Below, piece after piece: positions 4,730-38,292 of a DNA stretch of 38,956 nt (positions within the stretch are counted from its first letter, which is position 1; each line of letters starts with the position of its first letter). The stretch is taken from positions 1 through 38,956 of the forward strand of contig JABJGI010000149.1 of assembly GCA_018662305.1 (NCBI GenBank). Direction: 5' to 3'. A program made the translations under genes and the position numbers. Source of the stretch: Porticoccaceae bacterium. GTDB lineage: Bacteria; Pseudomonadota; Gammaproteobacteria; Pseudomonadales; GM7GCV1. The notes below the pieces were generated by a model. It made no database searches. It was not told the origin of the DNA and saw only the letters and a program-made list of their open reading frames with translations.

Positions 4730-6127
4730 CTAATGGCTTAGCGTTCGGTTTAGGTTTTTCAGGTCTTCTCGCATATCCGCACTACTCTCTTCAAGCTCTT
4801 TAATCTTGCGGCATGCATGCAGTACGGTAGTGTGATCTCGGCCGCCAAAAGCGGTACCGATTTCAGGCAAGCTATTATTAGTCAGAGACTTCGACAATGC
4901 CATAGCTACCTGTCGTGGTCGCGCTAAAGAACGTGTCCGTTTCTTCGACATAAGGTCACTAAGTTTAATTTGATAGTACTCGGCAACGGTTCGCTGAATG
5001 TTCTCAACTGTGACCAATCTGTCTTGCATCGCGAGGAGGTCCTTAAGTGACTCCTTAATCAAATCCAGAGTCACTGGCTCACCCGTGAAGTGAGCGCTTG
5101 CCATCACGCGTTTTAGCGCGCCCTCTAGCTCGCGAACGTTTGACCGGATTCTTTGCGCAATAAAAAAGGCAGCATCTGATGGCAGATCCATGTTCGCCTG
5201 TTGCGCCTTATTCATCAAAATAGCCACTCGAGTTTCCAACTCTGGAGGCTCAACCGAGACCGTTAAGCCCCAGCCAAACCGGGATTTAAGACGCTCTTCC
5301 AAACCGTCAATCTCTTTTGGGTAACGATCGCAACTCATAATCATCTGCTGTCGGGACTCCAACAGTGAATTGAAGGTGTGGAAAAACTCTTCCTGGCTGC
5401 GGTCCTTATTGGCAAAAAACTGAATATCATCGATAAGCAACGCATCGGCGGAACGATAAAACCGCTTGAAGTCATTGATGGCATTGAGCTGAAGGGCTTT
5501 CACCATATCGGCAACAAAGCGTTCAGAGTGCAAATAAAGCACGCGCGCATTGGGGTTCTTTCTCTTTAACTCGTTCCCCACAGCTTGCATCAAATGGGTT
5601 TTACCCAGTCCAACGCCGCCATATATAAAAAGCGGGTTGTAACCCTCCCCTGGGTTTTCGGCGACCTGCTTTGCTGCAGCCAATGCGAGTTGGTTTGATT
5701 TCCCCTCTACAAAGGACTGAAAAGTAAACTGGTTATCCAGGTTGGATCGGCTAGTTCCCATTAAAGAATGGACCTTGCTCGCATCGGAATGATTTTGATT
5801 GGTCTTGGATTCTGAACTTTGGGTGTTTTCTTTCTGGCTGCCCAGGTCGAGCGCTCTACCAAAACTTAGCGCAGGAACCTCGGCATTAGAGTCCTGCAAA
5901 TCAATAATGACTCGAGGCGGTTCATTCGACGCCTCTCCCAATATCGTTCTTATGCGTGACAGAAACTTTTCTGTCACCCAGTCGGACACAAATTTATTTG
6001 GTGCCAACAGCCGCAGCTCTCCATTGCCCTCCTGAGATCTCAGGGGTCGAATCCATGTATTAAACTGTTGTTCCGGTAATTCATCTTGAAGGGCATTGCT
6101 GCACCTCTCCCAAAGAAGGGTAGACAC
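4730..6127 (-). CDS. dnaA: Chromosomal replication initiator DnaA
   Basis: AAA+ initiator that binds DnaA boxes, melts oriC and helps load the DnaB helicase. The 465-residue protein has an N-terminal domain I (residues 1-90), a variable Ser/Asn-rich linker (about 95-130), Walker A GGVGLGKT near residues 170-177, Walker [10 protein letters not shown] near 230-238, and the C-terminal DNA-binding signature [15 protein letters not shown]. The start is GTG at 6127-6125, with AGAGG eight bases upstream. A perfect DnaA box lies 125 bp upstream of the start, consistent with the autoregulation known for dnaA. Confidence 0.97.
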
Positions 6128-6210
6128 CGATAAAACCTCTTTTGCTCTACATTGCCCACTGCTGGCAACTTAGTTTGTCCCCCAACAATCCTTGTTTAGG
6201 AATAGCTATC

Positions 6211-6223
6211 CGCCAAAATGGCG
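6211..6223. promoter_or_regulatory. Perfect palindrome upstream of dnaA
   Basis: CGCCAAAATGGCG is a 13-bp perfect inverted repeat (five-base arms around AAA) located 84-96 bp upstream of the dnaA start and 28 bp from a DnaA box. It could be an operator in the dnaA promoter. I do not recognise the cognate regulator. Confidence 0.3.
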
Positions 6224-6559
6224 AATCCCCTTAATTATTCGAGCGGCGATTTTATCCACAACGAAATGCCTTGGTAAAGCCCTAGCTAATTATGTGTATT
6301 ATTCTTATTTTTCAATGCGTTAGGTAGAGTCAATGAAATCGCCGCTTTTTGCTTTCTATCCCCAAGCACGACACAAATTGCGCCACATCTGTGGATAACC
6401 TGTGAGTTAACAGTGAATTGGCAGTGAAGTGTAAGACATCGCATTAATTTCAACCGTTACCAAATTCATCAACGACATATAAATTCCCGCTATTAGCTTT
6501 TTAACTTAGATAACAAATTTCTAGCGATCTCTCGCATCACATATTTTTTAGCAGTTTCA

Positions 6560-6588
6560 TTGATTTATTCAGGTTGGTTGCTTAGAAT
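6560..6588 (+). promoter_or_regulatory. Sigma-70 promoter of rpmH
   Basis: TTGATT (6560-6565) and TAGAAT (6583-6588) are separated by 17 bp. The bases after the -10 (CGCGCGCCCGC) are GC-rich, the discriminator type typical of ribosomal-protein promoters subject to growth-rate/ppGpp control. It lies about 100 bp upstream of rpmH and would drive rpmH-rnpA-yidD-yidC. Confidence 0.65.
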
Positions 6589-6685
6589 CGCGCGCCCGCT
6601 CGATAGTGATTTTATTACTGGTTGAGCACTCGAATAAAAGCGAGCCGATTCGGCTAGCTAAATTTAGGAAACCGGAAGCAATCCG

Positions 6686-6820
6686 ATGAAAAGAACATTT
6701 CAACCAAGCAACATTCGTCGCAAAAGAACTCACGGCTTTCGTGCACGCATGGCCAGCGCAAACGGTCGTAAAGTTTTGGCTCGCCGCCGAGCAAAAGGAA
6801 GGAAAGTACTGAGCGCCTAA
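6686..6820 (+). CDS. rpmH: 50S ribosomal protein L34
   Basis: Small basic protein of the large ribosomal subunit. The 44-residue product begins [20 protein letters not shown] and contains the family-invariant NGRKVL...RRAKGRK segment ending LSA; length and sequence are typical. GGAAGC lies a few bases upstream of the ATG. It is the first gene of the rpmH-rnpA-yidD-yidC cluster, 56 bp ahead of rnpA. Confidence 0.98.
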
Positions 6821-6876
6821 CTAGCCGCTCAGAAGTGTATTCTTAACTTCCTTCTAGTGGTGCTCCACTATCAAAA

Positions 6877-7305
6877 GTGCTCCGCTACAAATTCCGCCAA
6901 CAAAACCGACTGAAAAGCCCGAAAGAATTTCAGTCGGTCTTTGACCACAACCAAATCCGCGTAGGCTCCCCGAGCATACTGATTCTAGCGAAACCAAACC
7001 AACTCGAGATTTCCCGGCTCGGACTTGTGATTCGTAAAAAGTTTGTTCGTTTTGCCCACGACCGTAATCGCGTCAAGCGCATAGTCAGAGAATCTTTTCG
7101 CCACTCCCAGTCAAGTTTCCCGGGGTTGGATTGCGTTGTGCTGACACGTCCCGGAGCTGGAGATATGGCAAACAAAGAATTGCGTAACCTCCTGGACGAG
7201 ATGTTTACCACCCTGGCCAACAAGAATGTAGCGAACAAGAAAGTGGCCACCAATGAAGTGGCGAATAAGAAAGTCGCAAACAACGGCGACTCTAGCGGAC
7301 AATAG
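6877..7305 (+). CDS. rnpA: Ribonuclease P protein component with repeat-expanded C-terminus
   Basis: Protein subunit of RNase P, which with the M1 RNA removes 5' leaders from tRNA precursors. The 142-residue product starts with GTG and shows the family core [22 protein letters not shown] followed by RESFRHSQ, the basic RNR-type signature. Typical family length is about 110-135. The last 29 residues are a run of VANKK-like pentapeptides encoded by 15-bp tandem repeats, outside the conserved fold and probably dispensable. The start codon is uncertain because no clear ribosome binding site precedes it. yidD follows after four bases. Confidence 0.93.
7216..7290 (+). repeat. 15-bp in-frame tandem repeat in rnpA
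   Basis: Five consecutive degenerate units of 15 bp, of the form GCGAACAAGAAAGTG, encode [20 protein letters not shown] and ANNGD. Units begin at 7216, 7231, 7246, 7261 and 7276. The divergence between units shows the array is not brand new. Confidence 0.85.
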
Positions 7306-36350: not shown

Positions 36351-36824
36351 ATGTGGCGGTTGTTGCTGGCGCTGGCCTTTTCTGCGGCTGTGCAAGCCCA
36401 GGACCAGATCACAAAACCTGAATATCTGCACTTCGGTGCTTCATTAGTTGAAGTGCAGTCTGCGCTTACCTCAAAATGTACTGCGCTCAATACTCGTTCG
36501 ATCTCTCCGATAACGGCGCCCTTAGCTAGGGAGTCCCAAGTACAAATTGATTGCGAAGGATTCCGCTATGGCGGGGCAGAGCGAAAAATGGAATTGGTTT
36601 TTCAGGATGACCAGCTCGATATCATTTGGATATTACTTGCCGAAGAGGAACTGCCTCTATTCAAGCAGAGGTTCACGGAAGCCTACGGAGAACCTTCCTT
36701 CGAAATTAATTTTGGTACTGTGTTTCTTCAAGCCAATGCCGCAGTGAGAATCCAGCCACCGGAGGTGCTATTTGCGTCGGCCCGTCAGGTAGAAGCTATG
36801 TTGCAGCAGTTGGCGTCAGACTAG
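36351..36824 (+). CDS. Small exported protein, function unknown
   Basis: A 157-residue protein with a signal peptide (MWRLLLALAFSAAVQAQ, cleavage likely after Ala16) and mixed alpha/beta sequence containing two cysteines (CTALNTRS and DCEGF) that may form a disulfide. I recognise no family. The ATG is one base after the stop of the TRAP binding protein gene, so the two are probably translated together and may act in the same uptake system. Confidence 0.7.
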   Translation: MWRLLLALAFSAAVQAQDQITKPEYLHFGASLVEVQSALTSKCTALNTRSISPITAPLARESQVQIDCEGFRYGGAERKMELVFQDDQLDIIWILLAEEELPLFKQRFTEAYGEPSFEINFGTVFLQANAAVRIQPPEVLFASARQVEAMLQQLASD

Positions 36825-36827
36825 GCA

Positions 36828-37157
36828 TCATTGGGATGCCAGATGATTTGAACCCCAGGCCTGTAAGGCATTGATGACGGGGGCAAGGGTTTTTCCGTAG
36901 TCCGACATTGAATACTCTACTTTTGGTGGTACTTCCGCGTAGACCTTCCTTACGACCAGCCCATGAGACTCTAGCTCTCTTAGCTGTTTTGTTAGCATTC
37001 TCTGAGTTATTTCTGGAATCATTCTTCGCAATTCGTTGAAGCGAATAGTTTCTGTAAGTAGGTGATACAGAATGACCCCCTTCCACTTTCCACCTATAAC
37101 TTCCAGCGCTGCTTCAACAGGACAGCCTTCATTGCAATCGTATTTAGCATGAGCCAT
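36828..37157 (-). CDS. HxlR family transcriptional regulator
   Basis: A 109-residue winged-helix regulator. Family features: CPVEAALEVIGGKWKGVILYHLL (residues 12-34), ELRRMIPEITQRMLTKQLRELE and the wing RKVYAEVPPKVEYSMSDYG. The N-terminal Cys12 is the position used for redox or quinone/aldehyde sensing in characterised HxlR/DUF24 members. GAGGTG lies a few bases upstream of the ATG. It is divergent from a quinone-oxidoreductase-type gene, a common pairing, and probably controls it and itself through the palindrome at 37170-37189. Confidence 0.93.
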   Translation of the reverse strand: MAHAKYDCNEGCPVEAALEVIGGKWKGVILYHLLTETIRFNELRRMIPEITQRMLTKQLRELESHGLVVRKVYAEVPPKVEYSMSDYGKTLAPVINALQAWGSNHLASQ

Positions 37158-37303: not shown

Positions 37304-38292
37304 ATGAGAGCAATGCAATTAAGTAGCTACGGTGAAGACGCCGAGTTTGAAGAAGTAGAGGCCACAATACCGACGGCAAAGTCGGATCAGGTTTTAGTGA
37401 GAATTGAGGCCTCCAGCGTAAATACCGTAGACACCATGATTCGTAAAATGGGGAAGGATTTGCCACTTTCACCGGATACTCCTGCCATTTTAGGGATGGA
37501 CTTTGCTGGAACGGTCGAAGCGATTGGCCAAGATGTCGAAGGCTTTTCTATTGGTGACGAAGTCTACGGCTGTGCTGGCGGCTTGGCAGATTTGCCAGGT
37601 ACATTGGCAGAATACATTGCGGCTGACTGCAAATTGATAGCGCATAAACCCAAAAATTTATCTATGACAGAAGCCGCGGCTTTGCCACTAGTTGCAAAGC
37701 CGCGGCTTATGAGGGATTGGTTCGCGCTGGTGCAGGGAAAGGGCAGAAGGTTTTAGTGCATGGCGGTTCCGGTGGCGTTGGGCATGTAGCCCTGCAACTC
37801 GCTAACCACTTTGGTGCCGAAGTCTTTGCCACTGGTGGTGGCGAAAAACAGCTCGCTCTAATCGAAGGGTTGGGGGCTACTCCGATCAACTATAAATCGG
37901 AAACTGTTGAAGACTATGTTGCTAAACATACCGGAGGTTCTGGCTTTGACGTCGTGTTTGATTCTGTTGGTGGCGCCAATATGCTTAATTCCTTTGAAGC
38001 GGCTGCGTTGAATGGCCAGATTGCTTCGACCGTAGCACTGTGCGAACTCGATTTATCCGTTGCTCACTTCAAGGGTTTGTCCCTGCATGTGGTCTTTATG
38101 CTTATCCCAATGCTATACAACCATAAAAGAGAAGATCATGGAGAAATTCTTGGCAATCTAACCCGGATTGTCGAGGCAGGTGGGTTAACGCCTGTGCTGG
38201 ATCAAAACCATTATTCCTTAAGCGAGGCGGGCCAGGCGCATGCCCGATTGGAAAGTGGTCAAGCAATGGGAAAGGTAGTTATCGAAAATTAA
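37304..38292 (+). pseudogene. Zinc-independent quinone oxidoreductase/MDR alcohol dehydrogenase, frameshifted
   Basis: NAD(P)H-dependent quinone or enone reductase of the medium-chain dehydrogenase superfamily, in two overlapping frames: 37304-37756 and the continuation in another frame to 38292. The first part has the N-terminal GroES-like domain (MRAMQLSSYGEDAEFEEVE, ILGMDFAGTVEAIGQDVEGF) up to SMTEAAALPLVA. The second frame resumes at AYEGLVRAGAGKGQKVLVHG and holds the Rossmann motif GGSGGVGHVALQLA and the rest of the domain. The expected junction (LVA-x-x-AYEGL) is reached by removing two bases near 37697-37704. The break lies in a perfect 15-bp inverted repeat. GGAG is eight bases upstream of the ATG. 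Otherwise intact codons imply a recent lesion or a sequence error. Confidence 0.88.
37671..37708. repeat. Perfect inverted repeat at the frameshift
   Basis: AAGCCGCGGCTTTGC (37671-37685) is repeated in inverted form, GCAAAGCCGCGGCTT (37694-37708), around an 8-base loop. The first copy encodes the normal EAAAL residues of the reductase; the second replaces residues where the family has two variable residues before AYEGL. Confidence 0.95.

Follow-up and report, generated by a model that had tools for sequence, protein, structure and literature searches.

A frameshift at a perfect inverted repeat in a Porticoccaceae reductase gene is probably the product of a template switch

Imperfect inverted repeats can become perfect ones through mutation. 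Ripley proposed that this occurs when the nascent strand switches template, and the account given in PMC7202029 describes support for the proposal at thyA and lacZ reporters. The same process has been documented in natural coding genes of yeast (PMC8604942) and in the genomes of apes (PMC7954356). A few gene-inactivating cases are given in PMC8604942, for example those in T4 rII, E. coli rpsL and thyA, and yeast CYC1. In E. coli reporters, DNA-protein crosslinks induce template switching more readily on the leading strand than on the lagging strand (PMC6357072).

Here we describe a locus that is a natural bacterial example of this known type of mutation and not a new kind of event. It lies in a gene for a medium-chain reductase near the right end of the window, by which we mean the whole stretch of 38,956 nucleotides that was analysed. 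We propose that a single template switch associated with a quasipalindrome recently inactivated an intact accessory reductase gene, and we give this reading a probability of roughly 0.8. The features are listed in Table 1.

Table 1. Positions in the window of the inverted repeat, the broken gene, its regulator and the probable origin of replication.
Feature	Position	Strand	Description
Left arm (putative template arm), AAGCCGCGGCTTTGC	37671-37685	+	Part of the perfect inverted repeat; codes in frame for the conserved residues EAAALP
Loop, CACTAGTT	37686-37693	+	8 nt; holds the palindrome ACTAGT, which lengthens the imperfect arms to 22 bp
Right arm (rewritten arm), GCAAAGCCGCGGCTT	37694-37708	+	Exact reverse complement of the left arm
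Eight-base tract, AAGCCGCG	37697-37704	+	Stands for six bases (Ile-Thr codons) of the homologues; net +2, frameshift
5′ ORF of the broken medium-chain reductase	37304-37756	+	GroES-like N-domain (PF08240), then an out-of-frame tail; stop at 37754-37756
3′ remnant in the other frame	37705-38292	+	NAD(P)-binding domain (PF00107/PF13602); begins AYEGL
HxlR-family regulator, divergent, beside the reductase	36828-37157	-	PF01638, E = 1.1e-35
Probable oriC	6170-6846		dnaA-rnpA interval; DnaA boxes at 6252 and 6390

A reductase gene broken at an inverted repeat

The gene has the domain order of a medium-chain dehydrogenase/reductase, with a GroES-like N-domain followed by an NAD(P)-binding C-domain. 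Its 5′ half matches PF08240 (E = 2.7e-17), and its 3′ half matches both PF00107 (E = 1.1e-18) and PF13602 (E = 3.3e-22). The initial annotation placed a change of frame at the inverted repeat, and this is what we find: the ORF that opens at 37304 leaves its frame there, and the remainder continues to 38292 in the frame of ORF 37717-38292. One open frame spans both domains in 93 full-length homologues and is absent here, where it is broken at the eight-base tract. Because the 5′ ORF terminates ahead of the NAD(P)-binding domain, the predicted product should be dead. When compared with the NCBIfam models TIGR02817 and TIGR02824, the halves scored 88 and 112 bits against whole-protein cut-offs of 284 and 297. 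Because both halves stay below the curated cut-offs of the named NCBIfam subfamilies, no substrate was assigned.

The repeat at 37671-37708 has perfect arms of 15 bp and a loop of 8 nt, exactly as annotated from the letters, and the homologues encode the same residues as the EAAALP stretch that had been assigned to its left arm. When two mismatches are allowed, the arms grow to 22 bp (37668-37689 and 37690-37711, with 20 of 22 bp paired), and this imperfect repeat ranks top among the inverted repeats of the 39-kb window. The runner-up perfect inverted repeats in the window have arms of 11 and 10 bp. When random 8-mers were put at the lesion, a 15-bp arm arose once in 20,000 trials. A 15-bp repeat at the site of the lesion is beyond chance. 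Within the gene, the only 8-nt tracts with an inverted copy at most 60 nt upstream are the lesion and one chance pair. Folded as DNA, the hairpin of the window has a dG of -22.5 kcal/mol (z = -8.3), and the two homologous segments that were folded show no special stability (z of about 0).

Two other origins for the repeat were considered and rejected. The 12-mer AAGCCGCGGCTT has two copies in the 2.24 Mb genome, both at this repeat, which excludes a mobile or repetitive extragenic palindrome. An intrinsic terminator is excluded because the repeat falls within conserved coding sequence, lacks a T-run and is missing from the homologues.

Elsewhere in the same genome, perfect inverted repeats with arms of 12 and 11 bp are found at L125:6729-6757 and L109:4314-4343. 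Both sit in long open frames without a T-run, and they may be further quasipalindrome sites.

At least 20 further loci also have an HxlR gene beside a homologue of the reductase. In the window, the regulator and the reductase are flanked by TRAP genes, with the gene for the substrate-binding protein on one side and the DctM gene on the other. In sister genomes, these two TRAP genes are present but no regulator or reductase was detected between them; in the two same-genus genomes the TRAP genes are separated by about 0.2-0.5 kb. Because the two sampled sister species lack the pair, we consider the regulator and the reductase to be an accessory, lineage-specific cassette. A 157-aa ORF (36351-36824) behind the TRAP substrate-binding gene had no match in Pfam or NCBIfam, and no counterpart was found at the corresponding position in the sister genomes.

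In searches of the order, the class and plasmids, the nearest homologues reached about 71% DNA identity at most, and none of them displays the palindrome from which the present one would directly have arisen. An orthologue was not found in two same-genus and two same-family genomes, and an exact 27-mer scan of viral contigs gave no match. The homologues closest by protein share 64-81% identity over the C-terminal half and come from many phyla, with representatives in Planctomycetes, Bacteroidetes, Verrucomicrobia, Nitrospirales and Gammaproteobacteria. This spread suggests that the reductase has frequently been transferred horizontally.

Conservation at the site and age of the lesion

In all 93 full-length homologues, the place of the eight bases is taken by six that encode Ile-Thr. 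The right arm had initially been described as falling where two variable residues are expected and as bringing in eight bases instead of six. The exchange of eight for six holds, but the residues are not variable, being Ile-Thr in 93 of 93. The perfect inverted repeats of the homologues at this site are just 3-7 bp long, and the flanking GCA and GCTT and the inner ACTAGT are compatible with an imperfect parent repeat. Because a perfect repeat in an intact frame would cost the Ile-Thr codons, the repeat and the frameshift appear to be the same change.

These invariant residues also bear on whether the frameshift might be programmed or tolerated. A full-length product could conceivably be made by -1 slippage at A_AAG (37696-37699), a tetramer that lies within GCA AAG in the right frame. 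Alternatively, a second polypeptide could be re-initiated at GTG 37756, which is in the frame of the 3′ half, overlaps the premature TAG and has GAAGG upstream. In favour of rescue, the 3′ half keeps all its conserved columns. However, the -1 product would have Lys-Ala-Ala where 93 of 93 homologues have Ile-Thr, and neither slippage nor re-initiation would restore the invariant pair. No homologue uses such a site. A_AAG by itself is a weak slippage signal, and the hairpin both overlaps and precedes the slip site rather than standing downstream of it. We therefore regard rescue by frameshifting or re-initiation as exceedingly improbable. Ribosomal hopping from GCA to GCT across the eight bases was rejected, as the invariant residues would be lost.

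None of the 88 near-invariant columns is altered in either half of the gene, and no further indel separates the window protein from the 93 homologues inside the gene. Since no near-invariant column has changed, the gene was probably intact until recently, in support of the earlier view that the lesion is recent. An old pseudogene is excluded by the same unaltered columns and by the absence of a second lesion. A drifting gene would expose about 200 bases to visible change at the 88 columns, and the rule of three then gives a rough bound, suggesting that the lesion is younger than about 1.5% neutral divergence.

The lesion is thus recent, or else the sequence contains an assembly error. The latter would be a hairpin artefact of assembly, amplification or sequencing, in which case the cells would have an intact gene and the right arm in the contig would have arisen by fold-back. 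All 88 columns would be equally unchanged if the error lay in an intact gene, the assembly is a 170-contig draft, and the gene is about 660 bases from the end of its contig (38956). However, an artefact could appear in the consensus only by dominating it. The tract is clean in that its arms match exactly and additional errors are absent, and the other long ORFs of the window look unbroken. In addition, perfect repeats with arms of at least 13 bp in 205 kb from other contigs of the same genome were terminator-like only. Together, these observations make an artefact unlikely.

Template, strand and proposed mechanism

Linear alignment was set against a model that allows one event, the copying of a tract from an inverted template lying upstream on the same strand. 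Our own scoring scheme was used, with an 18-bit penalty charged for the switch event, and the ancestral sequence was constrained by the protein conservation of distant homologues rather than read directly. The switch model was better than the linear alignment for 93 of 93 references, with gains of 14.9-26.1 bits (median 20.5), although the references are related and share one descendant, so that a single event is scored many ways and these are not 93 independent tests. The tract picked was 37694-37708, copied from 37671-37685, every time. The changed bases lie wholly within the right arm, and there is microhomology at entry (GCA/GCAA) and at exit (GCTT).

A model in direct orientation gained 7.8-19.0 bits and so improved on the linear alignment as well. 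Being identical to its reverse complement, AAGCCGCGGCTT also forms a 12-bp direct repeat, the right copy repeating the left. Misalignment or patchy gene conversion could in principle have placed this copy 26 nt downstream, without a hairpin. However, a direct copy accounts for 12 of the bases and not 15, and its median score is about 4 bits lower. It would have to enter from a mismatched 3′ end (GCA versus CAG), unlike inverted copying, where GCA(A) is paired. Had simple slippage taken place, the 26-nt interval would have been duplicated or deleted, and neither occurred. We consider a direct copy highly improbable. For orientation as such, the margin of about 4 bits gives a moderate preference for inverted over direct copying; because AAGCCGCGGCTT is self-palindromic, orientation is read only from the three extra bases, GCA, and the entry homology.

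Template switching in a hairpin, or quasipalindrome correction, had been proposed when the repeat was first noted, and it is the best explanation of the data. It accounts for the exchange of eight bases for six, the exact reverse-complement arm, the microhomology at the switch points and the gain of 15-26 bits.

The strand on which such a switch would have occurred can be approached from the replication origin. From the start of the window, the gene order is gyrB-recF-dnaN-dnaA on the minus strand, the DnaA boxes, and then rnpA, mnmG, parA/parB and atp genes on the plus strand. Of these, dnaA, dnaN, recF, mnmG and atpA were confirmed with NCBIfam, and the others were identified by sequence and order. 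The region from dnaA (-) to rnpA (+) occupies 4733-7302 and contains both DnaA boxes, which are perfect copies of TTATCCACA. GC skew goes from negative to positive, with the cumulative minimum near 11.5 kb. Based on the origin genes and boxes and on the GC skew, the fork travels from left to right at 37.7 kb, with the plus strand as its nascent leading strand.

The rewritten arm is the distal (right) arm on the nascent leading strand, which matches the prediction for intramolecular fold-back. On the leading strand, the left arm would be synthesised first and could template the right arm by folding back. On the lagging strand, an intramolecular fold-back would have altered the left arm instead. 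We give this agreement modest weight, as it is one binary prediction that would come true half the time by chance.

Under the proposed mechanism, the nascent leading strand, growing from left to right, would have paused after ...GTTGCA(A). Its 3′ end would then have folded back, with GCA(A) pairing with TGC(TT) of its own left arm, and the left arm would have been copied as GCAAAGCCGCGGCTT. The strand would next have unfolded and re-annealed to its proper template via GCTT. In this way, the six bases of the Ile-Thr codons would have become eight, making the arms perfectly complementary and shifting the frame, with probable loss of activity.

A broader possibility is a loss-of-function state, caused by the frameshift, that segregates or has been selected in the wild population. 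Broken and intact copies would then coexist, and the weak quasipalindrome would be a replication-direction-dependent hotspot that repeatedly silences the HxlR-linked reductase. We consider this very unlikely.

Comparison with known systems

Natural bacterial pseudogenes seldom show how they arose. This locus is an unusually clean natural case with a traceable direction: the sequence reveals which arm was the template, where both switches occurred and which strand was probably involved, and the replication origin is on the same contig. As a single case, it is an added example and not a new principle. Similar cases across genomes could test whether the leading-strand bias of the E. coli reporters holds in nature.

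The gene resembles the medium-chain dehydrogenase/reductase family (PF08240 plus PF00107/PF13602, including HxlR-linked zinc-dependent alcohol dehydrogenase proteins) in its domain order, conserved residues and HxlR neighbour. It differs in being split by a frameshift where the two domains join.

Short-range switches described by comparative genomics under the four-point model, in apes (PMC7954356), yeast genes (PMC8604942) and RNA stems (PMC8794818), are similar to this locus in their clustered change, their reverse-orientation template less than 100 nt away and their scoring against a linear alignment. Those studies compared close relatives, whereas here the comparison is with distant homologues only, at no more than about 71% DNA identity.

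The closest parallels are the E. coli thyA hotspot and the lacZ QP5/QP6 reporters (PMC7202029, PMC6357072), in which an imperfect repeat is likewise perfected in one step, with one arm copied from the other in a nascent-strand hairpin. Quasipalindrome mutations in E. coli also combine a small indel with clustered changes, often producing a frameshift, and a leading-strand bias has been reported in those systems under replication blocks. In contrast to the E. coli reporters, which are laboratory-selected, the event here is read from a natural genome. It also differs from the E. coli systems in that the parent repeat would have been weak (outer AAGC/GCTT, inner TGC/GCA), with six bases becoming eight at once.
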